This document shows positions 4,377 to 55,218 of a stretch of 55,219 nucleotides of DNA, piece by piece. The notes under the pieces were generated by a model. The model saw only the letters and a list, made by a program, of their open reading frames with translations, did not search any database and was not told the DNA's origin. A program made the position numbers and the translations under genes. Origin of the DNA: a virus; the IMG/VR virus record IMGVR_UViG_3300017613_000358, positions 1 to 55,219 of that record, one strand, 5' to 3'. The stretch's first letter is position 1. Every line of letters starts with the position of its first letter.

Positions 4377-4522
4377 AGTTTTGAGAGAACGGGCTGCGCT
4401 CTCAAGCCTTAGTCAGATCCTTAAATGGTAGACGGGGAGAGCAGTACTAGTCAATGCTCGGTGTCTGTCTATGGGGCGACGGTTTGATCTCCGCCGTAGT
4501 CATAGAATGCTCAGGCAGCCCG
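4377..4522 (+). ncRNA. Structured RNA candidate with long-range pseudoknot (copy 1)
   Basis: The spacer 4367-4551 has no gene. TTGAGAG (4381-4387) pairs with CTCTCAA (4399-4405). The loop segment CGGGCTGC (4390-4397) pairs with GCAGCCCG (4515-4522), giving an H-type pseudoknot. Between the arms are two hairpins: AGAC/GTCT with GAGC/GCTC (4430-4466), and CTATG/CATAG with an inner CGACGG/CCGCCG (4469-4505). The spacer at 13167-13298 has the same start, TTTTGA(G/T)AGAACGG, and the same stem-AAC-stem-G-stem order. It may be a cis-regulatory leader of the gene at 4552 or a processed small RNA. All pairing was found by eye. Confidence 0.55.
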
Positions 4523-4551
4523 CGAATCTCTAGAGAAAGGAGAAAGATAAA

Positions 4552-8760: not shown

Positions 8761-8888
8761 TGACAGACCTTGACTTAATCGTTAGATGGTGGTCGGCTAT
8801 ATTATTTATGTCCATTATCACTGTACTTGCAATAGGAGGATTCATTGTAGGGATGAGTAAATTGATGGAATGGAGAAGAAAGAAATGA
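8760..8888 (+). CDS. Single-pass membrane miniprotein
   Basis: 42 residues. The ATG at 8760 overlaps the previous stop (TAATG). One hydrophobic helix (SAILFMSIITVLAIGGFIVGM) is followed by a basic end (EWRRKK). The stop overlaps the helicase start as ATGA at 8885-8888, so it is a coupled gene rather than spacer. A similar miniprotein follows the helicase at 11179-11325. The function is unknown. Confidence 0.55.
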   Translation: MTDLDLIVRWWSAILFMSIITVLAIGGFIVGMSKLMEWRRKK

Positions 8889-11759: not shown

Positions 11760-11788
11760 TTGACATTCAATCATCAAAATGATATAAT
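11760..11788 (+). promoter_or_regulatory. Sigma-70-type promoter, extended -10, leaderless start
   Basis: TTGACA (11760-11765) and TATAAT (11783-11788) are perfect boxes 17 bp apart, with TGA directly upstream of the -10. The expected start of transcription is about 11795, which is the first base of the ATG of the following frame. The mRNA for the HNH part would therefore be leaderless or nearly so. Confidence 0.8.
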
Positions 11789-13160: not shown

Positions 13161-13166
13161 ACCAAG

Positions 13167-13298
13167 TTTTGATAGAACGGTCTCCGCTATCAAAAGCAAC
13201 CGGAAGAAGCATCACGAGCTTCGCGGTCCAGCCCAGGAGGTATGCAACCTTCACTGGGAACGTGATCCCGAAATGGGAGGTGTGGGCTGAGGGGGACC
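13167..13298 (+). ncRNA. Structured RNA candidate with long-range pseudoknots (copy 2)
   Basis: TTTTGATAG (13167-13175) pairs with CTATCAAAA (13187-13195). The loop GGTCTCC (13179-13185) pairs with GGGGACC (13292-13298) with one G-U, making the same stem-AAC-stem-G-stem pseudoknot as at 4377-4522. Inside, ACCG/CGGT encloses GAAGC/GCTTC. The loop ATCACG of that hairpin is complementary to CGTGAT (13261-13266), a second pseudoknot. CAGCCCA pairs with TGGGCTG to close the 3' part. The 152-base spacer holds no gene and lies just before the nuclease at 13313. Confidence 0.6.
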
Positions 13299-13312
13299 TT
13301 TAGGAACTAAGA

Positions 13313-16689: not shown

Positions 16690-17232
16690 ATGATATACAA
16701 ACTAGATAACAGATTCCAGCGTGTACTATATGTTGCAGGTCCGTATCGTCATTACTCAACGCACAAGCAGTTTGAGAACATACTCCGCGCCAGGAAAATA
16801 GCTAAGCACCTATGGAATCTTGGGTTCACCGTGATCTGTCCTCATACTAATAGTATGCTGATGGATGACAATGCAGCTTCAGATGAACTGTTTCTCGCTG
16901 GCGGACTCGAACTGTTAAAACGATGTGATGCTATAGTAATGCTTCCTCTTTGGGAGCTATCACCAGGGTCGATGACTGAGAAATCTATAGCTGAAGATCA
17001 TGACATACCTGTATTTTATTGGGATGATCCAGTATCACAAGATGCACTAATAGAATGGAGTAACAAGTGCCAACCCTCAAAATCACAGACATCAAAATCG
17101 GAGAAGACCGCATACGCAAAAGCCTCGAACGACTCGACGAACTGGCCGCTTCTATTAGGAAGTACGGTTTGCTCCATCCTATTGTGGTCGATAGGAACAC
17201 ACTTACTCTTATCGCGGGAGAACGACGACTAA
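16690..17232 (+). CDS. DUF4406 / nucleoside 2-deoxyribosyltransferase-like protein
   Basis: 180 residues. RVLYVAGPYRHYSTHKQF, GFTVICPHTN, LFLAGGLELLKRCDAIVML and SPGSMTEKSIAEDHDIPVF match the Rossmann-like DUF4406 fold. Residues after ~125 are read from DNA that also encodes the ParB domain of the next gene in another frame. That tail happens to be hydrophobic (WPLLLGSTVCSILLWSIG) and is probably not conserved. The family may act on nucleotides; its substrate here is unknown. Confidence 0.65.
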   Translation: MIYKLDNRFQRVLYVAGPYRHYSTHKQFENILRARKIAKHLWNLGFTVICPHTNSMLMDDNAASDELFLAGGLELLKRCDAIVMLPLWELSPGSMTEKSIAEDHDIPVFYWDDPVSQDALIEWSNKCQPSKSQTSKSEKTAYAKASNDSTNWPLLLGSTVCSILLWSIGTHLLLSRENDD

Positions 17233-18605
17233 GAGCACATATGGTCCTCGGTGAGGACAACATTGAAGTCAACTATAGAGAAGACCTAGATGAGTTCCAG
17301 CTTCTTGAGCTAGAGCTAGAGGAAAACTTATCCAGAGAACAACTGACGTGGCATGAGGAAGTCTTAGCAAGGAAAGAACTCCACGAAATAAAGCAGCGTA
17401 ACTATGGAGAAAGTGGTTCAGGTAAAGAAGGCGGTTGGAGAATAGAAGATACCGCTGAGGCATTAGGTCTTGATAAATCTACTCTTTCACTCGATCTAAC
17501 ACTAGCTAAAGGACTAGAGATATACGAGGAACTAGCTAGAATACCATCGAAAAAGAAAGCGATGGAAGTTCTCAAGACTGCACAAGAGCGAGCAATTCTA
17601 AAAGAAATAGCAAAGAGGAGGGAAGATGGAGCAGAAGAAGGAGAGGGCGATATTAATGCTCAACTCAACGCGTTCGTTACTGGACTTGACAACGGGGCAG
17701 ATGATGGAACTGACGAAGGATCTGGGAGCGGTACTGACTCCTCTGGTGTCGGAAGATCCGAGTCCAGAAGATCTAATTCTACTGAAGAAACAGATGACGG
17801 AATTAGATGCCTCAATGCAAATTGTATTGAGGTCGTTAAGCAACTCCCTTCGGCATCTATCGATCTTGCAATCGTTGATCCCCCCTTTGGACTCGGAGAT
17901 GATATCATAGGCTTTGGCCCAGGTTCCAAAGAAGCTAACTTCGCTAACGATGCTTCTCATTGTCTCTATCTATATGCTAATCTTGTTCCCGAACTGTATA
18001 GAGTAATGAAGCCTGGTACTCATGCTTACTTGTTTCTAGCTATCCAGTTCAATCAGACTATCAGAGAGATGTGTGAGCATATCCACTTGGACGAGAAAGC
18101 ATCTAAACGCGATGACATGGATATTTATGAGGGGTTCATAGTCAGACCGATGCCATTGATATGGGTGAAGGAATCTTCTCATCGCGTAGATCCTGACTGG
18201 AAGATTCCTACTCGTTACGAAGCAGCACTGTGGCTCACGAAGGCTCCTTCTCGACCACTGAATACATTTATGGATGATGTCTTCATTGTAGCAAGAGAAG
18301 CTTCGACTAAAAGAATACACTCAATGGAAAGACCAAGAGAACTAATGAAGAAGTGGATCGAAGCATCATCTAATCCAGGTGATTTAATACTTGATCCCTT
18401 TGGAGGTTCATTCGTCGTTCCTCATGTCTGCTTAGAGACTGGAAGGAAATGTATATCATGTGAGCTAGATGAGACGAATTACCAAAGAGGAATGGTGAGG
18501 ATAGAACAGTTAAGGGAAGAGATAGCTAAGAAGAAGAGAGAAGAATCTCCTGATTTAAGTGCAGAAGAATTAGAAGATGCCCTTGATTCTATCTTAGATG
18601 AATAG
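17067..18605 (+). CDS. ParB domain - DNA methyltransferase fusion
   Basis: 512 residues from a GTG start at the natural ParB start (LKITDIKIGEDRIRKSLERL in part). Residues ~1-180 are ParB/Sulfiredoxin-like with ELAASIRKYGLLHPIVV, LIAGERRLRAH and a helix-turn-helix part. An acidic Gly/Ser/Thr linker follows (~190-240). The C-terminal methyltransferase has motif IV DPPFG near residue 271 and motif I DPFGGSFVVPHVCLETGR near 443, the beta-class order of N6-adenine or N4-cytosine enzymes. It would methylate phage DNA, perhaps for defence evasion. It overlaps DUF4406 by 166 bases. Confidence 0.8.
   Translation: MPTLKITDIKIGEDRIRKSLERLDELAASIRKYGLLHPIVVDRNTLTLIAGERRLRAHMVLGEDNIEVNYREDLDEFQLLELELEENLSREQLTWHEEVLARKELHEIKQRNYGESGSGKEGGWRIEDTAEALGLDKSTLSLDLTLAKGLEIYEELARIPSKKKAMEVLKTAQERAILKEIAKRREDGAEEGEGDINAQLNAFVTGLDNGADDGTDEGSGSGTDSSGVGRSESRRSNSTEETDDGIRCLNANCIEVVKQLPSASIDLAIVDPPFGLGDDIIGFGPGSKEANFANDASHCLYLYANLVPELYRVMKPGTHAYLFLAIQFNQTIREMCEHIHLDEKASKRDDMDIYEGFIVRPMPLIWVKESSHRVDPDWKIPTRYEAALWLTKAPSRPLNTFMDDVFIVAREASTKRIHSMERPRELMKKWIEASSNPGDLILDPFGGSFVVPHVCLETGRKCISCELDETNYQRGMVRIEQLREEIAKKKREESPDLSAEELEDALDSILDE
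17626..17910 (+). CDS. Possible overprinted gene inside the ParB-methyltransferase linker
   Basis: 94 residues in the +1 frame relative to the fusion gene. GAGGAGGGAAG directly precedes the ATG. The sequence reads like a natural helical protein (RSLLDLTTGQMMELTKDL, PEDLILLKKQMTELDASM), whereas the fusion's own reading over the same DNA is low-complexity (GADDGTDEGSGSGTDSSG). The two readings differ so much that the short frame may be the older gene here. Expression is unproven. Confidence 0.35.
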   Translation: MEQKKERAILMLNSTRSLLDLTTGQMMELTKDLGAVLTPLVSEDPSPEDLILLKKQMTELDASMQIVLRSLSNSLRHLSILQSLIPPLDSEMIS

Positions 18606-18782: not shown

Positions 18783-18803
18783 AAAGTTTAACGGGTAAAC
18801 TTT
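18783..18803 (+). repeat. Inverted-repeat motif Y, copy 2
   Basis: AAAGTTTA-ACGGG-TAAACTTT is a perfect inverted repeat with 8-bp arms around a 5-base centre, the best formed of the four copies. It ends 11 bases before the endonuclease start at 18815 and could hide its ribosome binding region in RNA or act as an operator in DNA. Confidence 0.7.
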
Positions 18804-18814: not shown

Positions 18815-19285
18815 ATGAGAAGAATAGTTGCGGGGCATTACTATATTCAAGTAGACAATAGAGACTATGAGTGGCTAAAGCAATACAGTTGGCGCGTAAA
18901 TGACTTAGGCTATGTACAATGCAGCAACAAACAGCCTTGTTACTACATGCACAGAATGATTATGGATGTAACTCACTTGCCTTGGGATAAAGTTCAAGTA
19001 GATCACATAGATGGTAATCCGCTAAACAATCAGAGATCAAATCTACGTCTAGCTACGCCGACTCAAAATCAAGGACACAATCATGTTAGAGGCGGGACAT
19101 CTAAATATAAAGGAGTATATTGGCGTGAGGATAATTGGCAATGGCGAGCTCAAATACGTTGCAATGGAGTCACACGCACTAAGACTTTTGCTGATGAGAC
19201 AAAAGCCGCAAAGCAATATGATATATGGGCAGTAGAATTATTTGGTGAGTTCGCTAAAACCAACGCAGAAATATTTGGGATATGA
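18815..19285 (+). CDS. Free-standing AP2-HNH homing endonuclease
   Basis: 156 residues from the ATG at 18815; a GTG at 18806 is also in frame. VDNRDYEWLKQYSWRVND is the typical N-terminal strand pair. HRMIM...VDHIDGNPLNNQRSNLRLAT is the HNH nuclease core, and SKYKGVYWRED...WRAQIRCNG...AAKQYDIWAVELFGEFAKTN is the AP2 DNA-binding domain. It lies between the methyltransferase and polymerase genes and overlaps the polymerase start as ATGA. It is a selfish endonuclease, with no sign that it splits a gene here. Confidence 0.85.
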   Translation: MRRIVAGHYYIQVDNRDYEWLKQYSWRVNDLGYVQCSNKQPCYYMHRMIMDVTHLPWDKVQVDHIDGNPLNNQRSNLRLATPTQNQGHNHVRGGTSKYKGVYWREDNWQWRAQIRCNGVTRTKTFADETKAAKQYDIWAVELFGEFAKTNAEIFGI

Positions 19286-22200
19286 ACGCAACTGACCTCA
19301 TTAAACAACACAGTCAACTGGCACCACTTCGGCTTCCATACACTAGAGGAAATCCGTATGCTAAGATCGTAGTGGTGGGGGAGGCACCTGGAGCTAGAGA
19401 AGAAAGAGCCTTCATGGACGGGGCTAAAGATACAGCATTCGTAGGAGCTGCTGGTAAAATAGGAGATAAAATCTTACTAGATGCTTCTATTCCTCCTGAA
19501 TCTGTCTACTTCACAAACGTCCTTAAGCGTAGACCTCCAGAGAATAATTTATTAGCTGTCCCTTGGAGTGAAATATTAACCAATATTGAATTACTGAAGA
19601 AAGAGATATGTCGCTTACCGAACTGTACTATTCTAGTACCTGTAGGTAACTTAGCTCTCTGGGCTTTGACAGAGATAAATAAGCTGAAGCTAGACAAGGA
19701 AGGTAAATGGATAAAGATACTATCTGGGATAACAAACTACAGAGGGTCAATCCTCTCTTCAGTCTCATTAAACAGCGATGGACTAACGAAGAAAGTTATA
19801 CCGACGTTTCACTTCGCGTACACAGGAAGGGTATGGAAGACACGTCCTACTGTGGTAGCAGACTTCAAACGCATAAGGGAAGATTCTGCCTTCTCCCAAC
19901 TCCGCCATCCTTCCCCAGAGTATGTTATAAGACCATCTAAAAAAGAAATAGTAGACTACTGTGAGTTCGCTGCAACACAGAAAGCAATCACAACTGATAT
20001 AGAAGACTCACCATTATGTGTAGGTGTGTCACATAGTAAAGATTATGCAATGTGCATACCTTTCCAAGAGGCAGATAGTTCGCCTGTCTGGAGTGTAGAA
20101 GATGAAGCGACAGTTCATAGAGCAGTTCATAAATTGTTCAGTAACCACAAAGGCCATGTTGGACACTTCTACTACCACGACGCGTACTTATACCATCACT
20201 ACGGCTGGCTCGAAGCCCTCCTCCATCGTTTCTATGGTACTGTCTTCGACACTTTTTCTGCGCACGTTTGTCTCTATGCAGAGCTACCTCACTCTTTACA
20301 ATACTTAACCTCTATATACACAAGAGAACCTTACTACAAAGACGAAGGAAGAAAGTGGACCCCTAAAGACCCCGTAGAGCAGGTCTGGCTATACAACTGC
20401 AAAGATATAACAACTACTCATGAATGTATGGAGGAATTACATAAAGAACTACGCGAAGTAAACTATTATGAATTCTTCCAGCAATATTATATGGATCTCT
20501 TCCCTCATCTCCTTCAATCAATGGTTCGAGGAATGCGACTAGACGAACTGAAGAGATCTAATGCACGAAGAGAATATCTAAAGAAGATAATCTCCGCTCA
20601 AGAAGAACTACATCGCGTCATTGGAAGACCTAGTGTGGATCTACCGAGAAAGGTAGAGTCTCCTAAGGAATGGAATAAGGTAGAAGGATACTTCAATGTC
20701 AAATCTAACCCGCAGGTTTCTAATGTACTCACCGAACTCAACATTAACCTTGCCTCAACGCAGGAAAAGTATCTCAGAAAAGAAGCAGCTAGAAATGCAG
20801 AAGCGCGACCTATCATTAAAGGTATCTTATCAGTTAGAAGTTTTCGAGACATACATAGCCGTTACTTGGTCCCTCGCTTAGGGCACGATCATCGCTTTCA
20901 CTATACTCTAAAGGCTGCGACAGAAACAGGTCGTCTTGCTTCTAGTAAAGATCCTTTACATTATGGAAACAATTGCTTTACTCCAGACACAGAAATACTC
21001 ACAGATGTAGGATGGACAAGATTTGATCAACTGGACAACAGAGACAAAGTTGCACAATACACTCCTGAAACTGAAGAAATTGAGTTTGTAAAGCCTACAG
21101 CTTATCACGTAATTCCTCATGATGGAGATATAATTACGATAGAAAACCAGCACATTGACCTATCAATGACTCCAGATCATCGTTGTCTATTCCTGTATGA
21201 TCGCCCTGCTAATAAAGATAGATCTGCACAGTATAAATTTGTTACACGCGAAGCAAAGGAATGGAATAATAGTAGCTTTTACAATGTCATACATAGCGGA
21301 ATGTACAAAGGAGGGCATGTAAAATTACCTCGCGAATTAATAACACTTGTATGCGCGACGCAAGCTGATGGTTATATATCTAGTGGAGTCAATATAGATT
21401 TTACATTCAAGAAGAAGCGTAAGATAAAGAGAATAGTACAAGCACTTGAATCACTAAATGTTCCATACTCTATAAAGCCAAAGGGAGATAAGTATACTAG
21501 AATATATTTGAGAGACTGTAAGATAGTACAAAAGATAATAAAGTTACGTAAACAGTGGAGTCATTGGTTGCTCAAACTGGATCGCGGAACAATAGACTCT
21601 TTACTAGAAGAAGTATACTTTTGGGACGGGCACTGGAAATCCAAAAGTATGTATGCAAGCACCAACATAGATAACGTAGACTGGATTCAGATATTACATT
21701 GCTTGAGCAATCATAGAGCCAAAGTAAGATTCTACACAAATAAGGATGGAGGATATTGCTATCAAACAGATGTAACATATCGTAATTGGTCAGGAACTGC
21801 AAATACAATACCAAAATATACGCATTACAAAGGACTCGTCTACTGTGTGACAGTTCCGTCATCTTATATTCTAGTAAGAAGAAATGGAAAGCCTATTATA
21901 ACTGGGCAGTGTCAAAATATACCTGACGGAATATGTAGATCTTATTTCGTCCCAGACCCAGGTAAAGTATATGGGTACTCAGATCTATCACAAGCTGAGG
22001 CTAGAGTAGTAGCTTACCTATCCAAATGCACTAAGATGATAGACGAGTTTGAAGCAGCAGATGAAGCTGCTAGACTAGGCACAATATGTGAGTGCGGTTC
22101 CGAGAAGCTATTCTCCAAATGTTGCGGAGATGTTCATAGATTATCAGCAGCAAATGTATTCTCGAAGCCAGTCTCTTCCATATCTCACGAACTCCGTTCT

Positions 22201-22740
22201 CTAGGTAAGCGAGTCAAACATGCCAGTAATTACAAGATGGGACCTTACACCTTCTCGCTAGTATCTGGATTACCAGTAGGCATGTGCAAAAAACTACTAA
22301 AACAATACTTCATAACTTATCCAGAAGTTCTACACTGGCACGAGAAGATTCAGCAACAGATCATAGAAACTAAGATACTAACAAATCCATTTGGTAGATG
22401 GAGAATGTTCTTCGGTCATCCATACTCAGATGACACACTAAGAGAAGCAGTAGCATTTATACCTCAGTCAACAATACCAGACATAGTAAACTTAGCATAT
22501 ATAAAAGCACAAGAAGCAGGCATACAAATATTAACTCAAGCACATGACGCATTATTATGGCAGTCATATAAAGAAGACGTAAAAGAAGCAGCAGAATTTG
22601 TAGAAAAAGCATTAATAGTACCAGTACCTATCGACGAAAACACAACTATTACAATACCAGTAGATACTAATGTGGGAGAGAGTTGGTCAGAAGATGACCT
22701 CGTTTCTGTAGATGAATATTTAGCTAAGCTAGCTGCATAA
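19282..22740 (+). CDS. Uracil-DNA glycosylase-like / DNA polymerase A fusion with intein
   Basis: 1152 residues, 840 after splicing. Residues ~25-200 are UDG-superfamily (VVVGEAPGAREER, AFVGAAGK, VYFTNVLKRRPP); the usual HPS motif is replaced by HFA in IPTFHFAYTGR. The DnaQ-like exonuclease starts with ITTDIEDSP. The polymerase has LASSKDPLHYGNN, an intein, CQNIP, motif A YSDLSQAEARVV (Asp901), motif B R972-x3-K976 with Tyr984, and motif C AHDALLW (Asp1089; the common Glu is Ala). A CxCGSx6CCG knuckle sits at residues 936-949. It is the replicative polymerase of the phage. Confidence 0.88.
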   Translation: MNATDLIKQHSQLAPLRLPYTRGNPYAKIVVVGEAPGAREERAFMDGAKDTAFVGAAGKIGDKILLDASIPPESVYFTNVLKRRPPENNLLAVPWSEILTNIELLKKEICRLPNCTILVPVGNLALWALTEINKLKLDKEGKWIKILSGITNYRGSILSSVSLNSDGLTKKVIPTFHFAYTGRVWKTRPTVVADFKRIREDSAFSQLRHPSPEYVIRPSKKEIVDYCEFAATQKAITTDIEDSPLCVGVSHSKDYAMCIPFQEADSSPVWSVEDEATVHRAVHKLFSNHKGHVGHFYYHDAYLYHHYGWLEALLHRFYGTVFDTFSAHVCLYAELPHSLQYLTSIYTREPYYKDEGRKWTPKDPVEQVWLYNCKDITTTHECMEELHKELREVNYYEFFQQYYMDLFPHLLQSMVRGMRLDELKRSNARREYLKKIISAQEELHRVIGRPSVDLPRKVESPKEWNKVEGYFNVKSNPQVSNVLTELNINLASTQEKYLRKEAARNAEARPIIKGILSVRSFRDIHSRYLVPRLGHDHRFHYTLKAATETGRLASSKDPLHYGNNCFTPDTEILTDVGWTRFDQLDNRDKVAQYTPETEEIEFVKPTAYHVIPHDGDIITIENQHIDLSMTPDHRCLFLYDRPANKDRSAQYKFVTREAKEWNNSSFYNVIHSGMYKGGHVKLPRELITLVCATQADGYISSGVNIDFTFKKKRKIKRIVQALESLNVPYSIKPKGDKYTRIYLRDCKIVQKIIKLRKQWSHWLLKLDRGTIDSLLEEVYFWDGHWKSKSMYASTNIDNVDWIQILHCLSNHRAKVRFYTNKDGGYCYQTDVTYRNWSGTANTIPKYTHYKGLVYCVTVPSSYILVRRNGKPIITGQCQNIPDGICRSYFVPDPGKVYGYSDLSQAEARVVAYLSKCTKMIDEFEAADEAARLGTICECGSEKLFSKCCGDVHRLSAANVFSKPVSSISHELRSLGKRVKHASNYKMGPYTFSLVSGLPVGMCKKLLKQYFITYPEVLHWHEKIQQQIIETKILTNPFGRWRMFFGHPYSDDTLREAVAFIPQSTIPDIVNLAYIKAQEAGIQILTQAHDALLWQSYKEDVKEAAEFVEKALIVPVPIDENTTITIPVDTNVGESWSEDDLVSVDEYLAKLAA
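20974..21909 (+). mobile_element. Intein with LAGLIDADG-like endonuclease in DNA polymerase A
   Basis: 312 residues (565-876). The start CFTPDTEILTDVGWTRFDQL is a classical block A and SMTPDHRCLFL is block B. ITLVCATQADGYI and LLEEVYFWDGHW are endonuclease motifs. Block G ends KPIITGQ before the +1 Cys, so Gly-Gln replaces the usual His-Asn; Gln-terminated inteins are known and splice. Removing it restores HYGNN-CQNIP, the conserved N-x-QNIP template-binding motif of family A polymerases. Confidence 0.87.
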
Positions 22741-29031: not shown

Positions 29032-29061
29032 ATGATAACATATTACATGGTCAATTGTCAA
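29032..29061 (-). promoter_or_regulatory. Sigma-70-type promoter inside the late block
   Basis: On the minus strand, TTGACA (29056-29061) and TATCAT (29032-29037) are 18 bp apart, with TGT before the -10. A second overlapping pair, TTGACC (29049-29054) and TATATT (29025-29030), is also possible. It would drive the endonuclease remnant, zinc-knuckle gene and lysis-like genes independently of late transcription. A palindrome covers its -35 box. Confidence 0.65.
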
Positions 29062-43380: not shown

Positions 43381-43746
43381 CTAAAACTTATTAATTGGAG
43401 CTCTTCCTGCCCCTTGACCTTTTATCTGGCTCTTAGCCATCTGTCTTCTCTGTTGTTCTTGTTGTTCGTGCATCTTAAATGACTGTTCCGCCTGCTTTAG
43501 GCCAATCTCTTCTTCAATTGCCATTATGCACTTTAATCGTTCATAATCTAAATCAAAAGGATACGATCCATGCACTTCCCGCCAAGCGCGTAAATGAAAA
43601 CATCTCTGTGTAAGCGCGACAGCCTCTTCTCCAAACTCATCGCAGAGAGCGTCGTAGAACTCCTCAGTTGGAGTTGTTCCCGGCGCCCTCTCCCCGTCAA
43701 GGTATTGCTCTCGCAGAAGGTGATCAGACTCAATCGTTAAGTCGTC
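43381..43746 (-). CDS. Tail assembly chaperone T-part, read by -1 frameshift
   Basis: 121 codons in the -1 frame, without a good start of its own. The frame opens right at the slippery site near the end of the upstream chaperone gene: DDLTIESDHLLREQYLDGER, then EEFYDALCDEFGEEAVALTQ and a Gln-rich end. The layout matches gpG-gpGT of lambda, with the fusion product about 272 residues. It lies directly before the tape measure gene. Confidence 0.65.
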   Translation of the reverse strand, partial: DDLTIESDHLLREQYLDGERAPGTTPTEEFYDALCDEFGEEAVALTQRCFHLRAWREVHGSYPFDLDYERLKCIMAIEEEIGLKQAEQSFKMHEQQEQQRRQMAKSQIKGQGAGRAPINKF

Positions 43747-44198
43747 TTTTTCGTACGGGTTGATTGAGAAGTCTGTCCCTTCCCTAATGATTCGTCTTGC
43801 GATGAGTCGGACTTTTTTACCGATTCAGTCTCCCTTCCACCTAACTTACCTAGTAAGGTGATTACAGCAGACTGCACATGCTCAATACCAATTTCATCTT
43901 CGAAGTATCCATCCCAGTCGTTCGCGCCTCTATCGACTCCTTCGAGATCCTCATATCCTTCCAATTTGTCAATATGACGTGACCAGAACTCATAGGTCAT
44001 CCGCAAAACCTTACGTCCCTTTGATCTCCCTGTCAGTTTGTCTGCAAGCTGTTCCCTTGCTCCAGGTGTGGGACGCTTGAAGTGATGAACTACCGCAACT
44101 TCATCTTCATAGACATCACCTGTTTCGGTGTCCTCATCTTCAATTATAAACAATAGCGCAACAGGAATAGTCTTTGGCACTAAAGACTTCTTAAACAT
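43737..44198 (-). CDS. Tail assembly chaperone G-part
   Basis: 153 residues. It is compact alpha/beta (VPKTIPVALLFIIEDEDTET) with a helical centre (FWSRHIDKLEGYEDLEGVDR) and a polar tail (SSQDESLGKGQTSQSTRTKK). It lies between the tail tube and tape measure genes. The slippery G AAA AAG at 43746-43752 is six codons before its stop, so a share of ribosomes should continue into the T-part. Confidence 0.65.
   Translation of the reverse strand: MFKKSLVPKTIPVALLFIIEDEDTETGDVYEDEVAVVHHFKRPTPGAREQLADKLTGRSKGRKVLRMTYEFWSRHIDKLEGYEDLEGVDRGANDWDGYFEDEIGIEHVQSAVITLLGKLGGRETESVKKSDSSQDESLGKGQTSQSTRTKKTT
43746..43752 (-). promoter_or_regulatory. Programmed -1 frameshift site (G AAA AAG)
   Basis: In the zero frame the codons are ACG AAA AAG ACG ACT TAA. 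Moving back one base on GAAAAAG enters a frame open for 121 codons. Tandem lysine codons AAA-AAG are the standard slippery pair in tail chaperones. I did not identify a downstream stimulating structure. Confidence 0.6.
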
Positions 44199-44249: not shown

Positions 44250-44278
44250 ATTATAACACAAGTGGATGACAAAGACAA
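44250..44278 (-). promoter_or_regulatory. Sigma-70-type promoter candidate before tail genes
   Basis: On the minus strand, TTGTCT (44273-44278) and a perfect TATAAT (44250-44255) are 17 bp apart, with TGT making an extended -10. It would start transcripts near 44243, about 45 bases before the tail chaperone gene. A plain host-type promoter in the middle of the tail genes is unexpected. Confidence 0.5.
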
Positions 44279-47648: not shown

Positions 47649-48599
47649 CTACGCTACAACAGCATCCATGAAGTAACCAAGATCCGTGCAACAAATTACA
47701 TGGTCGATGTTGAAGTATCCCTCGATACGGGTAAAGCGTTTCCACTCATTCCGCAGTCTACGGATAGTAACTGTTCGACCCTGCCGAGCCCAAATGAACG
47801 ACAAGAAAGCCGTAGGAGCCAGAAGACCGGGCTTAGCTACCTGATACATCAGGAGAGCGTCTTTCCCATAGTTGTAGGCATAAGCTGCGGTTGCGCCTTC
47901 AACATTGGTAGCCTTCAATGACTGCCCGATAACTAACTTATCGAGTTCGAGCAACGATGCGACCAAATCTTGAGTAAGCACGCCCTTTGACGTGTACTTA
48001 ATCAGTTCGATCATGGTTGGGTGATGTTTTAACTGACGCCAGACTTGACGCCCGAGCAACATCGAATTTGGGTCATAAGCAGTGACGCTATGAATAGCAT
48101 CTCGACCGTCTTCAACATCCATGATAGGATTTGAGGAACCCCAATCGTCCCACTGATTAAAGTCGGTCCCACCTACAACATCCGTTGCCCACTTACCGGT
48201 TGCGAAGATATCTGCCGCAAGAAGTACGTCCTTCTTGAGCAACATTTTATGGTTGACGAAAACGCGAGCGTCATTGTCAACCCGAAAGGGCGCATCTGCG
48301 TTGTTTCTGACTTCATCGGGAATGTCCTTATGAAAGCCATACTCCTCGCACCGATACGCAGACGTGCTTACCCTGAATCCGCTACCAGCAGTCTCAGTGG
48401 CAGGCGCACGTCTTTTCGCTTCATCACGGAAGAAATCTTCCTTAGTGTAAGTAGCATACGTGTTGGTCTGGTTCTCCACTTGGATAGCCGTAGTCAACTG
48501 CGATGCTACGAAGTTCTTCTCACTTTGGATGTACGCGATAGACATATTGCTAAGCGGTCTATCGGTATGCACATCGGCTACATCTGGTCGAAAAGGCAT
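47649..48599 (-). CDS. Major capsid protein
   Basis: 316 residues. VHTDRPLSNMSIAYIQSEKN, a run of TYATYTKEDFFRDEAKRRAP, and SAYRCEEYGFHKDIPDEVRN followed by NADAPF are characteristic of a large class of HK97-fold major capsid proteins. There is no long N-terminal delta domain. A separate scaffold-like gene lies upstream, as expected for this class. It follows the decoration-type gene, and AAGGAGGATAATA is its binding site. Confidence 0.8.
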   Translation of the reverse strand: MPFRPDVADVHTDRPLSNMSIAYIQSEKNFVASQLTTAIQVENQTNTYATYTKEDFFRDEAKRRAPATETAGSGFRVSTSAYRCEEYGFHKDIPDEVRNNADAPFRVDNDARVFVNHKMLLKKDVLLAADIFATGKWATDVVGGTDFNQWDDWGSSNPIMDVEDGRDAIHSVTAYDPNSMLLGRQVWRQLKHHPTMIELIKYTSKGVLTQDLVASLLELDKLVIGQSLKATNVEGATAAYAYNYGKDALLMYQVAKPGLLAPTAFLSFIWARQGRTVTIRRLRNEWKRFTRIEGYFNIDHVICCTDLGYFMDAVVA

Positions 48600-48638: not shown

Positions 48639-49055
48639 TTAAGACTGAGCTGCCCCAGCATATATCCTGGAGATATGAAGCTCAACTTCAATGAGTTCGT
48701 TATTTCCAGTTGCGCCAAGAGTCGCAGTACACATACCAAGCACGGTGACAATATCTCCATCTGAATGAAGCAGAGGAACTGCTTTACCAGCAGAATCAGC
48801 CGTCACCCATGTACCAGCAGCAATTGACACAGTTGCAGGGCGCACGACCTTAACTTTGCCACGAATAGCAACGGAGGCCATCTGCCCTGCCGCCGACGGT
48901 TTATTCTGCAAAACTCCAATGATATTATCAGAGTCAGCAGCCGCCAATGCAGCAGTATCATCCGTACCGTTAGTGGCTACAATAAAATACTGCTCATCTG
49001 ACAGATCAGCCGCAGCCAGGTACGATCTTAATTCAAGTCCTTCTTGAGTCGCCAA
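48639..49055 (-). CDS. DUF2190-type capsid decoration protein
   Basis: 138 residues. DSDNIIGVLQNKPSAAGQMA, then SVAIRGKVKVVRPATVSIAA and GTWVTADSAGKAVPLL, match the small beta-barrel family DUF2190 (RecA/RadA-named in some entries), found next to the major capsid gene. It probably decorates or cements the capsid. Confidence 0.7.
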   Translation of the reverse strand: MATQEGLELRSYLAAADLSDEQYFIVATNGTDDTAALAAADSDNIIGVLQNKPSAAGQMASVAIRGKVKVVRPATVSIAAGTWVTADSAGKAVPLLHSDGDIVTVLGMCTATLGATGNNELIEVELHISRIYAGAAQS

Positions 49056-49076: not shown

Positions 49077-49847
49077 TTAGTCGACTTCTTCGTGATCGCC
49101 CACATTAGGAACACGGCCTACCTGGGCATCGTAGAGATCAGGATTGTCCTCATATGCCTTCGTGAGAACTTCCTCTTCACTCAGGTCAGGATTCGCTTCC
49201 CTAATTTCCTTCGTGATCTTCCCTACTCGCTCGTCAGCAGATTTCTCTACTGGAGTACGTCCGCTGCCAACGGTGTCAAACAGGGTATTATCCTGAGCCA
49301 CCTTGTCCAGCTTCTGCAGCATCCCGACAACTTCCTCGTAGCCTTCAGTACCCTTCAGGGCACCAAGAGACTTCGTCAACTCCTCAGCTTCGACAGGCAA
49401 GAACTTGAAGCTAGTTGCAGTCGTCTGAATCTCTTCGGCTTCTCGAGCTTTCTTGTCATCTTCAATGGACTTCCGCAGATCCTCAATCGCCTGAGTGTTC
49501 TCTGCGTTAGCAGCACTCTGTGACTTCAACAGTTCTACGACCTCTTCAGGCAGCTTATGCTCCTTGATGACATCTTCGACAGACGGCTCAGTTTTGGTTT
49601 CTTTCGTCACCTTCTCTGAATCGTCATCCTCAAGATCATCAACAGCAGGAGCAGCCTTCACGAGCTCTGGGTCTTCGAAGACAGCATTCAGCTTCTCCTT
49701 CAACACGTCAATAAAATTCGGCATCGTTTTTGAATCCTCCTCTTCAGTGTCCTCTGCCTTGAAAATCAAGAACTTCCTTTTATTCGCAGCCTTACGAACA
49801 AGGGCTACTTTCTTTATCTCCAAGTCGTGCATAAATTTCTTAGGCAT
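49077..49847 (-). CDS. Putative capsid scaffolding protein
   Basis: 256 residues, mostly acidic and helical with coiled-coil parts (VIKEHKLPEEVVELLKSQSA, QAIEDLRKSIEDDKKAREAE). The first 25 residues (EIKKVALVRKAANKRKFLIF) resemble the start of XkdF-type head proteins. The position between protease and major capsid, and the composition, fit a scaffold. A sigma-28-like promoter lies 34 bases upstream. Confidence 0.6.
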   Translation of the reverse strand: MPKKFMHDLEIKKVALVRKAANKRKFLIFKAEDTEEEDSKTMPNFIDVLKEKLNAVFEDPELVKAAPAVDDLEDDDSEKVTKETKTEPSVEDVIKEHKLPEEVVELLKSQSAANAENTQAIEDLRKSIEDDKKAREAEEIQTTATSFKFLPVEAEELTKSLGALKGTEGYEEVVGMLQKLDKVAQDNTLFDTVGSGRTPVEKSADERVGKITKEIREANPDLSEEEVLTKAYEDNPDLYDAQVGRVPNVGDHEEVD

Positions 49848-49880: not shown

Positions 49881-49914
49881 CCATCTTATCGTAATCTGGG
49901 GCATCTTCATTAGA
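49881..49914 (-). promoter_or_regulatory. Sigma-28-like late promoter, copy 1
   Basis: On the minus strand it reads TCTAATGAA, ten bases, ATTACGATAAGATGG. Taking TAAT as -35 and TACGATAA as -10 gives a 15-bp spacer, the geometry of FliA/SigD promoters (TAAA-N15-GCCGATAA). The copy at 52338-52371 has the same two blocks at the same distance. It precedes the scaffold-like gene. Confidence 0.65.
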
Positions 49915-49942
49915 CGAAAATATTGCCTACCAGAGATGCCCC
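49898..49942 (-). ncRNA. Strong hairpin overlapping the late promoter
   Basis: GGGGCATCT and AGATGCCCC (49934-49942 and 49898-49906) are perfect 9-bp arms around a 27-base loop that contains the -35-like TCTAATGAA. No U-tract follows, so it is not a standard terminator. It would form only in RNA reading through from the upstream gene. Confidence 0.4.
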
Positions 49943-49959
49943 AAAGCGACAGAGACGAA

Positions 49960-49980
49960 AAGTTTACCCATTCAACTTCT
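49960..49980 (-). repeat. Inverted-repeat motif Y, copy 4
   Basis: On the minus strand this reads AGAAGTTGAATGGGTAAACTT, in the spacer between the jelly-roll-like gene and the scaffold-like gene. The spacer 49848-50012 (165 bases) holds this motif, the hairpin and the sigma-28-like promoter, and no gene. Confidence 0.65.
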
Positions 49981-50012
49981 GATATCTACGCTACCAAAAT
50001 ATCTCCTTTCCT

Positions 50013-50969
50013 TTAACGATATGCCCACGCGCCAAACTGTTTCACATCAACAGCCTTCACAGCCGTGGAAGTGGACTCGATTCCAAACACTGGAGTACAC
50101 TCTTCATCAACATCGAGCGCGATTGCTTGTGTGGCAACTTGTACCTTATCTAAGAAGAAAATCGCATCTCCATCGGCAGCCACTTCCATCCGAACTCTCT
50201 GATAAGTACCAGCTGCTGGGACGTTAGTAGAAGTGTCAACAGGAGGAGCTAGCGTTGCAGCAGCATTACTCTTGTTATAAGCAAAATACCAACGGTCACC
50301 GTCAGTGTAACCAACATCGAAGTGACCTAAGACGAGATCATCTTGAACTAGAGTAGCAGTCACAGTAGCACCGGTAACTGGTGGATCAAGAGCATCTGCT
50401 GCTGTACCAATGAATCCACAGTAGACATTCCTTAGTGTGATTGCTGTGACATTGGTGAAGATACAATCTACAACCAAGAGTTGATGCTGATCAGGCTGCA
50501 TAACTCCAGCAGCCATACCAAGATTGATCGTGTGAGAAGCTTCATTAGTGGTCGTCAATCTCATGGCGGTTCCACCTTCGCCTGCGGTCTGTGCGACTGC
50601 ACCAGAATCATTCTCAGCTGCTCCCTGACCAAAGATCCTGACACCTGAACCAGCTACAAGTACACCAGCAGCAGAACCAGCATGAGCAACTCCAACACCA
50701 TCACGCCAATCTGTCTGGACACCGAAAAGAGGACGCTGGTCCAGAGTAATAGGAGTGAAATAAGGACTCAGGAGAGTACCTTCATTCACGAAGACAACTC
50801 CATTGAGAGTGTCAAGAACAAGACCACCAGGATTTACCGCACCGACCATATTACCACTGGTCCCTGAAGTCGGTACACCTTCAACTGGAAACATGTTTGG
50901 AGATACCATCTCTTGCATCCAGTGAGCACCTTGCTGCTTAGAGACGTACCTTTGCTTATTAATGTTCAT
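50013..50969 (-). CDS. Virion protein with lectin-like beta fold
   Basis: 318 residues. A short N-terminal tail (MNINKQRYVSKQQGAHWMQE) precedes a strand-rich body ending in AGTYQRVRMEVAADGDAIFF and LDKVQVATQ, the pattern of concanavalin/LamG-type jelly rolls. The place between protease and scaffold suggests a capsid-associated protein, perhaps decoration or host binding. No named family is certain. Confidence 0.55.
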   Translation of the reverse strand: MNINKQRYVSKQQGAHWMQEMVSPNMFPVEGVPTSGTSGNMVGAVNPGGLVLDTLNGVVFVNEGTLLSPYFTPITLDQRPLFGVQTDWRDGVGVAHAGSAAGVLVAGSGVRIFGQGAAENDSGAVAQTAGEGGTAMRLTTTNEASHTINLGMAAGVMQPDQHQLLVVDCIFTNVTAITLRNVYCGFIGTAADALDPPVTGATVTATLVQDDLVLGHFDVGYTDGDRWYFAYNKSNAAATLAPPVDTSTNVPAAGTYQRVRMEVAADGDAIFFLDKVQVATQAIALDVDEECTPVFGIESTSTAVKAVDVKQFGAWAYR

Positions 50970-51010
50970 TTAACTGTAACCTCCGTTACTAAATAGAGCA
51001 ACAACTCATA

Positions 51011-51027
51011 CTTCTCACCACGAGAAG
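51011..51027 (-). other. Hairpin in the protease - jelly-roll spacer
   Basis: CTTCTC-ACCAC-GAGAAG is a perfect 6-bp stem with a 5-base loop in the 86-base spacer 50970-51055. There is no U-tract. It might be an RNA processing site or slow ribosomes or polymerase. Confidence 0.3.
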
Positions 51028-51055
51028 CAGAAACGATTACTCAGTCGAGACAAGA

Positions 51056-51883
51056 TTATGAGGGATCTTCTACTTCCGTTTTGATTCCTTTACCTTCAAT
51101 AGAGTATCCCGTAATATCTCCCTTTTTGATCTCTTTCCAGAGCTCGGCATCATAGATCTTCGTGGACTGTACCCAAGACCCCTTAACCACAGTTTCGTCG
51201 CCCAGAGTAAAATCTTCTGGCGCAACATAATTCTCAATAATCGCAGTCTGTGGCTGCTTCGCGTTATTATGTCCCACATTGTGAGGCTCCGCTTTCAAAA
51301 GGGCTAACTGCTCCATGAACTTTACATTGGCTTTCCATATCTCTTCCTCAGTAGTAAAGTCATCATGTGCATCTGTAGAAGCGATCTCGAAGCCGCTATC
51401 AACATCACCTTTCGCAGTCGGCTCCATCACGACGCCAGTGATGATCTGTTCTTCATCATCTATCGCCTTGATTACTACCTCTCTGGTGAAGGTACTCTTT
51501 GATTCTACGACAGTCATTGATTTAGACTTATTATCATCTTCATCTCTATCGGTCGTTGCCTTATAATTACTCGATTCTTCAGAATGCACAGAATGAGGAC
51601 GTTCTTTACCGTTTTGCCAGATATCTACTTTCAAGATATCCTGACAAATACCAGCAACCTGCTTGAGGATACTTGACTTAGCTTTTGCTACTTCTACGTC
51701 GATATTGGGATCTGCCATCTTAGTTACTCCGTTAGCATTTCTAAAAGCTGTTTTCTCGGCTTCCTTTGCCGAGTTACCTTGCTTCTTCTCTCTATTATAT
51801 GTCGCGTTCCACACAGCCATCCATTTCTTCTTCTTACTAGAAGGAACATGACTGGGAACTTCGGAAACACTTGAATAAGGCAT
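51056..51883 (-). CDS. XkdF-type head maturation protease with N-terminal ChaB domain
   Basis: 275 residues from the ATG at 51883. PYSSVSEVPSHVPSSKKKKW through AEKTAFRNANGV is a ChaB-like helical domain. The body, IKAIDDEEQIITGVVMEPTA, then FMEQLALLKAEPHNVGHNNA, and IKKGDITGYSIEGKG, matches XkdF-type phage head proteins related to serine S78-type proteases, with candidate His in EPHNVGH and Ser in GYSIEG. It would process the prohead. A longer frame start at 51961 overlaps the neighbour and lacks a binding site. Confidence 0.65.
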   Translation of the reverse strand: MPYSSVSEVPSHVPSSKKKKWMAVWNATYNREKKQGNSAKEAEKTAFRNANGVTKMADPNIDVEVAKAKSSILKQVAGICQDILKVDIWQNGKERPHSVHSEESSNYKATTDRDEDDNKSKSMTVVESKSTFTREVVIKAIDDEEQIITGVVMEPTAKGDVDSGFEIASTDAHDDFTTEEEIWKANVKFMEQLALLKAEPHNVGHNNAKQPQTAIIENYVAPEDFTLGDETVVKGSWVQSTKIYDAELWKEIKKGDITGYSIEGKGIKTEVEDPS

Positions 51884-51891
51884 CTTATTCC

Positions 51892-52299
51892 CTAGATCAT
51901 CACACAGGCACCGACAGTAGCCGTAGCTGCCGCGTCGGCAATTACTACCTGAACTCGCCATTTTCTAGGTACAGGAAAAGCTATTGATACATTAGCCGTC
52001 TCACTAGCTATACCAGGATGAATAGCTAAAGTAGCTGACCCAGCAGCAGTAAGCTGCGCTATTTCACATCCAGGCAGGTCATAGTAACTACCAGACGCAA
52101 CATCTTTACCTTGAACCTTGAGATCGAAGGTTTCTGTGCCTAGATTCGTCAGGATAGTTAAGTCCACGTGGATAATTACCCCACGCCCGGAAGCATTAAT
52201 TTGGTCCGCAGAGTTGACTGTCCCTGCGGCTTCCGCTGCAAGTGTCAGCACTGTTGTATCTGCATTCACTAAAGGACGAGGAAAGTTCTTTGTAGCCAT
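51892..52299 (-). CDS. Small virion protein (head region)
   Basis: 135 residues. NSADQINASGRGVIIHVDLT, LKVQGKDVASGSYYDLPGCE, TLAIHPGIA and KWRVQVVIADAAA give a compact beta sandwich pattern that recurs in small phage proteins near head genes. The exact role (decoration, fibre or completion) is open. It is the first gene behind the second sigma-28-like promoter. Confidence 0.6.
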   Translation of the reverse strand: MATKNFPRPLVNADTTVLTLAAEAAGTVNSADQINASGRGVIIHVDLTILTNLGTETFDLKVQGKDVASGSYYDLPGCEIAQLTAAGSATLAIHPGIASETANVSIAFPVPRKWRVQVVIADAAATATVGACVMI

Positions 52300-52337
52300 T
52301 AATTATCTCCTGAGATTCGCCGTGATATTACTATGCA

Positions 52338-52371
52338 CCATCTTATCGTAATATCGACACGTTTCCTTAAA
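52338..52371 (-). promoter_or_regulatory. Sigma-28-like late promoter, copy 2
   Basis: On the minus strand: TTTAAGGAA, ten bases, ATTACGATAAGATGG. The 15-base downstream block is identical to copy 1, and seven of nine bases in the upstream block agree. It lies directly behind the sigma factor gene and 39 bases before the gene starting at 52299. Confidence 0.65.
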
Positions 52372-52376
52372 TATTT

Positions 52377-52940
52377 TTAATGCTGCCCATTATTGCCATT
52401 CCCGTTACTATTCACTCCAACCACAATCTTATTGACCCTCCGCATCTTCTCTACTGCGCGACCTACCTTTATACATAAATAAGCCTCGGATATCTTGAGC
52501 TTATTGGCAATAACCTTCTGAGTATAACCACGCACAAAATGGAGTTCGAGAATTATTTGTTCTTCGCGCGACAGACTACATACCTTGAGAGTACTCATCT
52601 CGGTAGATACTTTAGTAGCGTCTGCTGCTTGTCCTCGATCACTGCAATAACACTCAACATCTGGAAAGATAGGAAGGTAACGACGATTGATAATAGCATG
52701 ACGCCGAACAAAGTCCCTCATTGAGCCAAGTATTTTAGGATAGATAAATGTCGCAAAAGAAGCTCCAGATACATGGCTCTCGTCCCACCTATCTAAGTTA
52801 TTCATAATACAGAGCAGACCTTCCGAAACCAGATCATCTCGTTCTATATTAGACGGTAATTTACCGATTACCCTGGCTAGAGCAAATTTGATCTGCGAGA
52901 TTCCAGATGCAATTAGTACAGTCCGCTCTTCTTGATTCAT
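52377..52940 (-). CDS. Phage sigma factor, FliA/SigD (sigma-28) like
   Basis: 187 residues. Region 2 is clear: IERDDLVSEGLLCIMNNLDR, then ASFATFIYPKILGSMRDFVR, as in FliA-type factors. Region 4 is LSREEQIILELHFVRGYTQK...ISEAYLCIKVGRAVEKMRR (helix-turn-helix). Region 1.1 is missing and region 3 is short, as in alternative sigma factors. It would direct host RNA polymerase to late genes. Two sites with sigma-28 spacing lie at 52338-52371 and 49881-49914. Being inside the late block suggests a self-reinforcing switch. Confidence 0.8.
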   Translation of the reverse strand: MNQEERTVLIASGISQIKFALARVIGKLPSNIERDDLVSEGLLCIMNNLDRWDESHVSGASFATFIYPKILGSMRDFVRRHAIINRRYLPIFPDVECYCSDRGQAADATKVSTEMSTLKVCSLSREEQIILELHFVRGYTQKVIANKLKISEAYLCIKVGRAVEKMRRVNKIVVGVNSNGNGNNGQH

Positions 52941-53282
52941 CTAGTGATCAACGCAAGGCACCTTTATTTTAGAAACCAATACTTTATCTGCTGTGATAGT
53001 CGCAGCAATCTTGACTTTGTACTTCCCTCCGTCAGCTAGTGACTGTAGAATCACTTCAACCATTGTGTCATTAGTGCCTTCGCCTGTAGTAATACTCGTA
53101 CCACGAATTATAGTGCTCGTAACATCATTTCCGTCGCCATCTTCAGCAGTTGTCGTGTCAGATGAGATATCCTCAGATGTCTCCATCTCATCGAAGAAGT
53201 CCCAGCTTACAGTAATTATCTCATCAGGCTGAACAATATCCGTTTCAGCCCATCCCTTCGCTTTTATCTTCTTAGTTGCCAT
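52941..53282 (-). CDS. Small beta-rich virion protein
   Basis: 113 residues. PDEIITVSWDFFDEMETSED, then SSDTTTAEDGDGNDVTSTII, then VEVILQSLADGGKYKVKIAA and TITADK, make an Ig-like sandwich common to small phage head-associated proteins (T-V-x-W-D ... G-x-x-Y-x-[LV] ... T). It lies one base before the sigma gene. Role uncertain. Confidence 0.55.
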   Translation of the reverse strand: MATKKIKAKGWAETDIVQPDEIITVSWDFFDEMETSEDISSDTTTAEDGDGNDVTSTIIRGTSITTGEGTNDTMVEVILQSLADGGKYKVKIAATITADKVLVSKIKVPCVDH

Positions 53283-53286: not shown

Positions 53287-55218
53287 CTAACTCATCCCCT
53301 CGTTACTGGACTTAAAACCTTTTATTCTATCTTTGGAACTGAACTCCAATATTCTATCCACCGACAAGAATATCCACTTACGCACACCAGGCACAATCGT
53401 CGTATCTATTGCGGCAACGTCAACTACTGATATGGACAAGCCATCATTCGCAGCAATTACAGCTACTAAATTCGCACTCTCTACTAATGATATATCGAGA
53501 GTATCTGTCCGCGCGAGGAAGAGTTGATTATTAACTGATTCGCCTAAGGCTATACTTAGGAGATCAGACCTCTGGAGAATAGACAAGAGATCAGATGCTT
53601 CAGCAACTGACAAACTCAAGAGATCAGTAGCAGAAACGGCAACTGTTATGTCTGTGGCACCTTCCGTCACACCAACATTTATTGTATCAACAGCATCAAG
53701 GGCGGCCAAGATATCAGCTTGCTCAGCAAAAGATATATCAATTGTATCAGAAGCAGCTGCATCACCAAATATTGAAAGTGCCTCAGTTAGAGAGACATTT
53801 AGGATGTCAGAGCGAGCTAAGAGAGCTGTGATCTCAGAAGCAGCTTCCACAATGCTAACTGTTATTGTGTCTGTCCCTGCCTTAGCAACAATATCACCAG
53901 CTATTTCAGAAGCCTCAACTAGTGAAACAGTAAGAGTATCCGTCCTAGCAATAGTTACTAGAATAGACGCTAGCTCAGTTAGAGATATATTGAGATTGTC
54001 TGTTCTATTTAGGAGGGAAAGAACAGAAGAAACAGTCTCAACTGTCGATATATCTAACTGATCTGTCGCTGAAACAGTAACACCTACACCAGCAGCTTCG
54101 GATATTGAAATCGAGAGGATATCCGTTACTGAAAGAGAGGCCAAAATATCTACATTTTCGCTTAGTGATACCGCTAGAGAATCAGTCCTTAATAGAATGC
54201 CTAAGATGTCAGGCGCACCCTCAGTTATCCCGACATTGAGAGAGTCAGAAGATGCAAGAGCTGCATAGAGTTCAAGTACGCTTTCCGTTAAACTTACACT
54301 TAAAGAATCAGAAGCTGATAGAATTACTGCAAGAGTGTCAACTACATCTGTTAGTGATAGAGAAAGAGTATCTGCCCGTGAGGAGCTAGATAAGATAGTG
54401 ACGAGTTCACTCAAGGAGATAGATAGAGAATCTACGCGATCTAGTTGAGCAATTATGTCAGGCGTACCTTCAGTGATCCCTACATTTACAGAGTCAGTGC
54501 GAATAAGGACAGCAGATAAGTCAGAAAGCGCGTCTACTAAAGAAACAGATAGGGAATCGGCACGATCTAATGCTGCTAAGAGATTGACAACTTCGCCTAC
54601 AGATACAGATATTGTGTCAGCGCGGGATAGTGTAACTAAGAGATCATCTGTTGCATCTGTTACTGAGACTGAGAGAGTATCGGAGCCAGCTTTCTCTGTA
54701 GGCCCTCCAGCCGCTGCCGTGTACTCGATATGGAGTTTCGGTGCAGCCACCCCAACATCTCTCGGCCAAAAATAACCATCGGCATCACCGTCATCATAGC
54801 CCAGGTAAACCATTGCCGCACCACTGGAGTAATCATAGGCGTCGATTAACTCCTGTATGACGGTTTTCAATTCCGGGCTATCTTTGTATGCGTTAATCCC
54901 TATGTCATCATCAGACCAATTGACATATGCCGTAGTCTTTGCTCTATCTGTAATATCGTTGGTCGTGGTTGAAAACGCAGCAGGAGCCGCCGCCTTTTCA
55001 AAATAGATGTCCACGTCTGGATCGTCATAACCAGCATTGTATGGATACCAGGATGTGTAAGCAGCATCTATTGTGGCACCGTCTGAGATTGTCACCTCAA
55101 ATCGAGCGGCGCCATGTTGTGACTTGTTATGCTTGACCCTCCCGTTGGTTGTGACTATTACCCCACCCGTTGATATTGTCTGATACGCATCGGCGGCATC
55201 GGCGGCCACATCATAATC
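53287..55218 (-). CDS. Virion protein with 21 tandem 20-residue repeats (N-terminus beyond window)
   Basis: At least 643 residues; the frame stays open to the window edge. The first ~185 residues resemble a DNRLRE-like domain (RFEVTISDGATIDAAYTSWY, HIEYTAA). Then about 21 repeats of 20 residues follow with consensus D-(S/T)-L-S-V-S-L-(T/V)-E-x(5)-L-x(4-5)-R-T/A, from SDTLSVSVTDA to DGLSISVVDVA. Three copies read NVGITEG or NVGVTEG instead. A short basic domain ends it (RKWIFLSVDRILEFSSKDRI). The alternating pattern suggests a beta-solenoid or fibre shaft. It may contact the host or decorate the capsid. Confidence 0.65.
   Translation of the reverse strand, partial: DYDVAADAADAYQTISTGGVIVTTNGRVKHNKSQHGAARFEVTISDGATIDAAYTSWYPYNAGYDDPDVDIYFEKAAAPAAFSTTTNDITDRAKTTAYVNWSDDDIGINAYKDSPELKTVIQELIDAYDYSSGAAMVYLGYDDGDADGYFWPRDVGVAAPKLHIEYTAAAGGPTEKAGSDTLSVSVTDATDDLLVTLSRADTISVSVGEVVNLLAALDRADSLSVSLVDALSDLSAVLIRTDSVNVGITEGTPDIIAQLDRVDSLSISLSELVTILSSSSRADTLSLSLTDVVDTLAVILSASDSLSVSLTESVLELYAALASSDSLNVGITEGAPDILGILLRTDSLAVSLSENVDILASLSVTDILSISISEAAGVGVTVSATDQLDISTVETVSSVLSLLNRTDNLNISLTELASILVTIARTDTLTVSLVEASEIAGDIVAKAGTDTITVSIVEAASEITALLARSDILNVSLTEALSIFGDAAASDTIDISFAEQADILAALDAVDTINVGVTEGATDITVAVSATDLLSLSVAEASDLLSILQRSDLLSIALGESVNNQLFLARTDTLDISLVESANLVAVIAANDGLSISVVDVAAIDTTIVPGVRKWIFLSVDRILEFSSKDRIKGFKSSNEGMS

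Follow-up and report, generated by a model that had tools for sequence, protein, structure and literature searches.

A FliA/WhiG-like phage sigma factor and two promoter-like sites in the head module of an uncultivated phage

Introduction

Does a phage that carries a sigma factor among its head genes use it to send the host RNA polymerase to those same genes? The question is raised by the minus strand of IMG/VR record IMGVR_UViG_3300017613_000358, which belongs to an uncultivated phage and was analysed in its entirety (55,219 bases, hereafter the window). An initial annotation had described here a FliA/SigD-like sigma gene and two intergenic sites of identical, sigma-28-like geometry in front of late genes, and had proposed a dedicated late-gene switch. 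The sigma gene and both sites, here called P1 and P2, were found precisely where they had been placed, on the same strand, with the sites lying between genes. The best reading of this arrangement, which is held with somewhat better than even confidence, is that of a phage sigma factor with its own promoters, by means of which the phage probably directs the RNA polymerase of its host towards the phage head genes.

Results and Discussion

The sigma protein

The product of the gene was recognized as a sigma-70-family factor by the Pfam models Sigma70_r2 (PF04542; 3.6e-7, 30.3 bits, above the gathering score of 24) and Sigma70_r4 (PF04545; 2.2e-6, 27.5 bits, above the gathering score of 24.1), as well as by TIGR02937 (50.3 bits, above the cut-off of 42.9). 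The best NCBIfam model was FliA_WhiG (TIGR02479; 4.2e-16, residues 14–87), with a score of 59.4 bits that misses the curated cut-off of 189.6 by 130 bits, and the best PDB matches by sequence were FliA and WhiG structures. The AlphaFold model (pLDDT 76) revealed two confident domains connected by a low-confidence linker (residues 85–119), and the Foldseek leaders by fold were SigD, WhiG, SigB and FliA. Regions 2 and 4 are separated by about 35–40 residues, compared with about 95–100 in E. coli FliA, region 3 being absent. This two-domain architecture resembles that of the extracytoplasmic function (ECF, group 4) factors; the ECF-specific NCBIfam models scored under their cut-offs, and the closest families were FliA/WhiG and SigB/F/G. 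Judged by profile, sequence and predicted fold, the protein is a member of the sigma-70 superfamily with its closest relatives in the FliA/WhiG group.

A closer look at region 2 was obtained by aligning the protein with 11 full-length FliA/WhiG-type proteins from viral contigs. The invariant residues F62, T64, I70, G72, R79 and R86 and the nearly invariant D76 are all retained, and D76, R79 and R86 align with residues D81, R84 and R91 of E. coli FliA, which in the work of Koo et al. from 2009 are said to contact the -10 region. The name FliA/SigD-like given in the initial annotation is thus justified for region 2, but not for the remainder of the protein, where region 3 is missing and the recognition helix of region 4 is mostly changed, nor by the family cut-off.

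The two promoter-like sites

P1 (49912–49881, TAATGAAGATGCCCCAGATTACGATAAGATGG) and P2 (52369–52338, TAAGGAAACGTGTCGATATTACGATAAGATGG) share, in the same register, the pattern TAA[T/G]GAA-N10-ATTACGATAAGATGG. Their identity runs five bases (GATGG) beyond the -10 element, outside the FliA consensus, and the 15-mer that they share is non-palindromic. P2 is placed directly behind the sigma gene, as had been described, with a gap of 7 bases between the stop codon and the site. The distance to the ATG is 33 bases for P1 (gene 49077–49847) and 38 bases for P2 (gene 51892–52299), where 34–39 bases had been given before, and ribosome-binding sites are present at both genes.

Because the sites had been picked by eye, their rarity was tested in several ways. 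The exact shared 15-mer occurs at these two places only, and its reversed control has no occurrence in the window. When the 23 positions of the shared motif were scored along both strands of the window, P1 and P2 matched at 23/23 and the next best sequence at no more than 16/23. The core TAA-N18-CGATAA was found twice in upstream regions (0.03 expected), a count reached in none of 400 shuffles; this core was defined only after the sites had been seen, so the count flatters them somewhat. As to whether the motif is equally common in coding DNA, the loose core does appear twice inside plus-strand genes (9721 and 11832), whereas the full 23-position motif is confined to the two intergenic sites.

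The repeat might still be coincidental, with the sigma factor acting on sites outside the contig. An exact 15-mer common to any two 100-bp upstream regions was reached in 5 of 300 shuffles, and the ungapped identity over 32 bases had to be discarded as evidence, given that 23/32 between upstream regions was reached by about half of 400 shuffles. However, the repeat, the TAAnGAA register, the matching distance to head genes and the CGATAA core are jointly much rarer, and together with the absence of the core pair from the shuffles and the 23 versus 16 motif matches they leave coincidence with hardly any credibility.

The sigma-28 consensus is TAAAGTTT-n11-GCCGATAA (PMC2859248). Scored as TAAA-N15-GCCGATAA, P1 and P2 each match at 9/12 positions, the spacing and the TAA..CGATAA core being exact and both sites departing from the consensus at A4 in the -35 element and at the GC within GCCGATAA. 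In upstream regions, 9 matches of 9/12 were seen (3.0 ± 1.8 expected), several of them within coding sequence. The fit to the consensus that had been claimed holds for spacing and core, but the overall score of 9/12 is by itself at chance level in the window and was rejected as evidence. What is distinctive about the sites is their mutual identity and the exact core, not the overall fit to the consensus.

Alternatively, P1 and P2 could be promoters for the FliA/SigD sigma of the host, with the phage sigma acting elsewhere, as TAAN-N15-NNCGATAA fits the core of the host sigma-28 consensus. Against this stand the bases that both sites lack and the extension of their identity past the consensus into GATGG. 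In addition, host FliA would be expected to use P1 and P2 poorly, because mutations in the -35 element of aer strongly lower its activity (PMC2859248). Promoters for the host factor are accordingly considered very improbable.

Genes and promoters around the sites

Genes on the plus strand of the window extend from about 100 to 24,237 and include those for a RecD-like helicase, DNA polymerase A, exonucleases, a Sak4-like annealing protein and a primase. The minus-strand genes occupy the rest, starting at 24,244, and among them are those for the head protease, the scaffold and the major capsid protein (Table 1). The latter is about 40% identical to capsid proteins of Arthrobacter phages, and in related phages, relatives of the first gene behind P1 are found two genes ahead of the one for the capsid (tblastn, Arthrobacter phage Ottawa locus). 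The long repetitive gene at the end of the record is probably structural. Neither the terminase large subunit nor the portal was found in the window with probes from related phages; for this reason, and because the last gene is cut off by the end of the contig, the record is judged to be probably incomplete.

Table 1. Position of the sigma gene, the promoter-like sites and neighbouring or related features in the window
Feature	Position	Strand	Description
Sigma-70-family factor	52377-52940	-	187 aa; region 2 (residues 25-87), region 4 (residues 122-168), without region 3
P1, promoter-like site	49881-49912	-	TAAT (49912-49909), N15, TACGATAA (49893-49886), GATGG; intergenic
P2, promoter-like site	52338-52369	-	TAAG (52369-52366), N15, TACGATAA (52350-52343), GATGG; intergenic
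Long protein with repeated DSLSVSLTE-like units	53287-55218	-	643 aa; no family match; open at contig end
First gene behind P2	51892-52299	-	135 aa; no family match
Head maturation protease (Peptidase_S78_2), second gene behind P2	51056-51961	-	Pfam 3e-25, phrog_3017 3e-31
Gene with no assigned function, last before P1	50013-50969	-	318 aa
First gene behind P1	49077-49847	-	256 aa; phrog_17741 5e-11
Head scaffolding-type protein	48639-49055	-	phrog_673 8e-14
Major capsid protein	47649-48599	-	phrog_1005 7e-71
Strong hairpin	49896-49945	-	read-through RNA fold; arms GGGGCATC/GATGCCCC at 49942-49935 and 49905-49898
Host-type early promoter	1014-1042	+	TTGACA-N17-TATAAT, TG extension, 12/12; intergenic
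Host-type early promoter	11760-11788	+	TTGACA-N17-TATAAT, TG extension, 12/12; intergenic
Sigma-70-like promoter, before gene 43737-44198	44250-44278	-	TTGTCT-N17-TGnTATAAT, 10/12; intergenic
Sigma-70-like promoter	29032-29061	-	TTGACA-N18-TATCAT, 11/12; intergenic
AAGTTGAAYGGGTAAACTT-family copies	4352-4370, 18784-18802	+	
AAGTTGAAYGGGTAAACTT-family copies	35337-35319, 49978-49960	-	

Since perfect host-type promoters are present on the early strand, a division into two promoter classes, host-type on the early strand and P1 and P2 at the head genes, is plausible. From this arrangement we infer that P1 and P2 would act as promoters, that the sigma factor would read them and that it would do so late. 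In this scenario the phage-encoded two-domain sigma, which would have descended from the FliA/WhiG group or be close to it, would join the host core RNA polymerase and direct it to P2, driving the protease and its neighbours, and to P1, driving the scaffold and the major capsid protein. The early genes would be read by the ordinary holoenzyme of the host from its perfect sigma-70 promoters.

The position of the sigma gene bears on when it would act. Its ATG comes directly after the stop codon of a gene for a 113-aa protein (52941–53282), itself preceded by the repetitive gene, so that the sigma gene is embedded in a structural operon. The two late-strand promoters of sigma-70 type (44278–44250 and 29061–29032) lie past the head genes, towards the tail side, and the 23-position scan of the window found the shared motif before no tail gene, only in the head module. 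The sigma would most likely act late in infection, boosting transcription of the capsid genes in a feed-forward manner, and would not be the first early-to-late switch; a booster is favoured over a master switch because the gene is situated within the structural operon, immediately upstream of P2, and has no convincing promoter of its own in the window. On three counts, the embedded gene, the restriction of the motif to the head module and the sigma-70-like promoters of later genes on the same strand, the dedicated late-gene switch of the initial annotation overreaches. A phage sigma with promoter-like sites before head genes is retained from that proposal, and a switch for the whole late strand is not.

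A true temporal switch would require the sigma to be made early or in mid-infection from a promoter outside the contig and to turn on the whole late strand. One promoter class on the early strand and another at the head genes would suit it, and so would the apparent truncation of the contig, from which an upstream promoter could be missing. It is nevertheless unlikely in view of the abutting start codon behind a probably structural gene, the sigma-70-like promoters of the tail side and the restriction of the motif to head genes.

The hairpin listed in Table 1 overlaps the spacer of P1 (z = -3.8; none of 200 shuffles as stable), is not seen at P2 and could serve in the insulation or processing of the upstream transcript. 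It brings up another possibility, namely that the shared sequence is an operator, an RNA leader element or some other protein-binding site of the head operons. A second family of repeated sequences at gene junctions likewise speaks for it, since repeated intergenic elements are therefore not always promoters. An operator or leader element is nonetheless improbable: the 15-mer common to both sites has no palindromic symmetry, the two leaders fold into unrelated RNA structures, and spacing and core match a known class of promoters. A common RNA structure was rejected, one leader being strongly folded and the other no better than shuffles, and so was a known RNA family, with no Rfam match at P1 or P2.

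The second family, AAGTTGAAYGGGTAAACTT and variants, forms an imperfect inverted repeat with four coding-strand copies. The two copies on the minus strand are identical over 19 bases, and one of them is placed 47 bases upstream of P1. A scan of viral contigs for this family gave scattered single matches only.

Search for relatives

Among viral contigs, only one other record, a 28-kb contig, matched the full promoter pattern. All stretches fetched from it were 100% identical to the window, and it is therefore no independent evidence. Matches to a relaxed pattern were rejected as chance (80 listed loci, each with one match and no related sigma), and bacterial and archaeal genomes contained six single matches in unrelated groups. 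Searches with the sigma protein in viral contigs, GenBank phages and bacterial genomes returned nothing usable. A search with FliA/WhiG fragments found full-length FliA-like proteins in phages and prophages, none of these loci having a sigma-28-like promoter pair.

The capsid protein belongs to a large family, from which 80 relatives with about 40–47% identity were fetched. No relative of the sigma was found in their loci, nor in the 41 whole records that were searched, and CGATAA did not occur in the examined gaps upstream of the relatives' capsid genes. This absence is weakly consistent with a motif that depends on the sigma.

Several observations weigh against a phage sigma reading P1 and P2. 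No independent relative of the sigma was available for testing the co-evolution of sigma and sites, and there are only two sites; with the sole other copy identical in its DNA, the link between the sigma and its promoters is one that we infer. There is no recognisable promoter before the sigma gene within the window, and further sites may lie outside the contig, since terminase and portal are apparently missing from it. By chance alone, about 46 places in the window would be expected to reach a sigma-28 consensus score of 9/12. Finally, the region-4 recognition helix carries EAYLCIKV in place of the ESRVSQLH of the FliA family, with only the invariant E kept; its preference at the -35 element need not be FliA-like, because this helix is largely replaced. 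The -35 part of the proposal would accordingly be the weaker one.

Likeness to known systems

A phage sigma factor with its own promoters is of a known kind, represented by phiEco32, 7-11, T4 and SPO1. Phage sigma factors redirect the host RNA polymerase to later genes in T4 (gp55, late) and in SPO1 (gp28 and gp33-34, middle and late). Their promoter motifs are unrelated to P1 and P2, and T4 late promoters have no -35 element and need coactivation by the sliding clamp.

The nearest parallel is found in phiEco32 and Salmonella phage 7-11, which encode a sigma of their own, rely on sigma-70 promoters of the host type for the early genes and have low-copy, well-conserved phage promoters before structural genes (PMC4331800). 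As in those phages, a repeated motif distinct from the early promoter class stands here before structural genes, and P1 and P2, like the phiEco32 and 7-11 promoters, came to light by comparing intergenic regions (PMC4331800). In contrast, the motif of phiEco32 and 7-11 consists of a TGATGT core plus TATA and has no sigma-28 geometry, and both phages also code for an anti-sigma protein and possess a larger number of sites (PMC4331800), whereas the window has a FliA/WhiG-like sigma encoded within the structural operon.

With the sigma-28 (group 3) factors FliA, SigD and WhiG, the system shares the sequence and fold of region 2, the promoter spacing and the core TAA-N18-CGATAA. It differs in a shorter protein without region 3 (187 aa versus about 240–270), a diverged region 4 and a score far under the family cut-off, and in promoters that match neither the fourth -35 base nor the GC within the -10 element.

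Two further records, IMGVR_UViG_3300020201_000122 and 3300015360_000317 (L094 and L095), likewise carry a FliA-like sigma beside head genes, with a distantly related capsid protein (23%) and a repeated element directly behind the sigma gene. Unlike the sigma of the window, theirs is full-length (267 aa) and is encoded between the small and large terminase subunits. An exact 37-bp direct repeat flanks the L094 sigma on both sides (4235–4271 and 5118–5154); in the portion of L095 examined only the downstream copy is seen (846–882). A sigma-28 motif is absent from the 37-bp repeat, which may represent either a promoter that was duplicated or the scar of an insertion.

In the libraries searched, no described case was found that combines a region-3-less FliA/WhiG-like sigma and sigma-28 geometry in a head module. 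It is possible, and put forward here only tentatively, that such a sigma was captured into the head module and forms, with two promoters of sigma-28 geometry and a fixed GATGG discriminator, a minimal, self-contained circuit that amplifies transcription of the capsid genes. The separate case of L094 and L095 would then suggest that phage head clusters have repeatedly recruited sigma factors of flagellar or sporulation type. Promoters are known for only a few phage sigma factors, and most of these have motifs that resemble no host class; in the present phage, a short sigma of recognisable FliA ancestry stands beside two candidate promoters of sigma-28 geometry, a pair that is directly testable. 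It raises the question of whether a factor of sigma-28 type can work without region 3 and with an altered region-4 helix.

Other elements of the genome

The plus-strand intergenic regions 4367–4551 and 13161–13312 begin with similar hairpins, in which a compensating change in the stem (GAGAG..CTCTC versus GATAG..CTATC) suggests a structured RNA; these regions have no Rfam match. The RecD-like helicase (8870–11179, plus strand) is split by a LAGLIDADG intein at residues ~122–460. A protein of 1152 aa (19282–22740, plus strand) has a uracil-DNA glycosylase domain at its N terminus, together with a 3'-5' exonuclease domain and DNA polymerase A, and its residues ~565–877 match regions common to the ribonucleotide reductase, PhoH and thymidylate synthase families, which suggests a second intein. 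At 17067–18605 on the same strand, a ParB-like N-terminal domain is fused to an N6/N4 DNA methylase.

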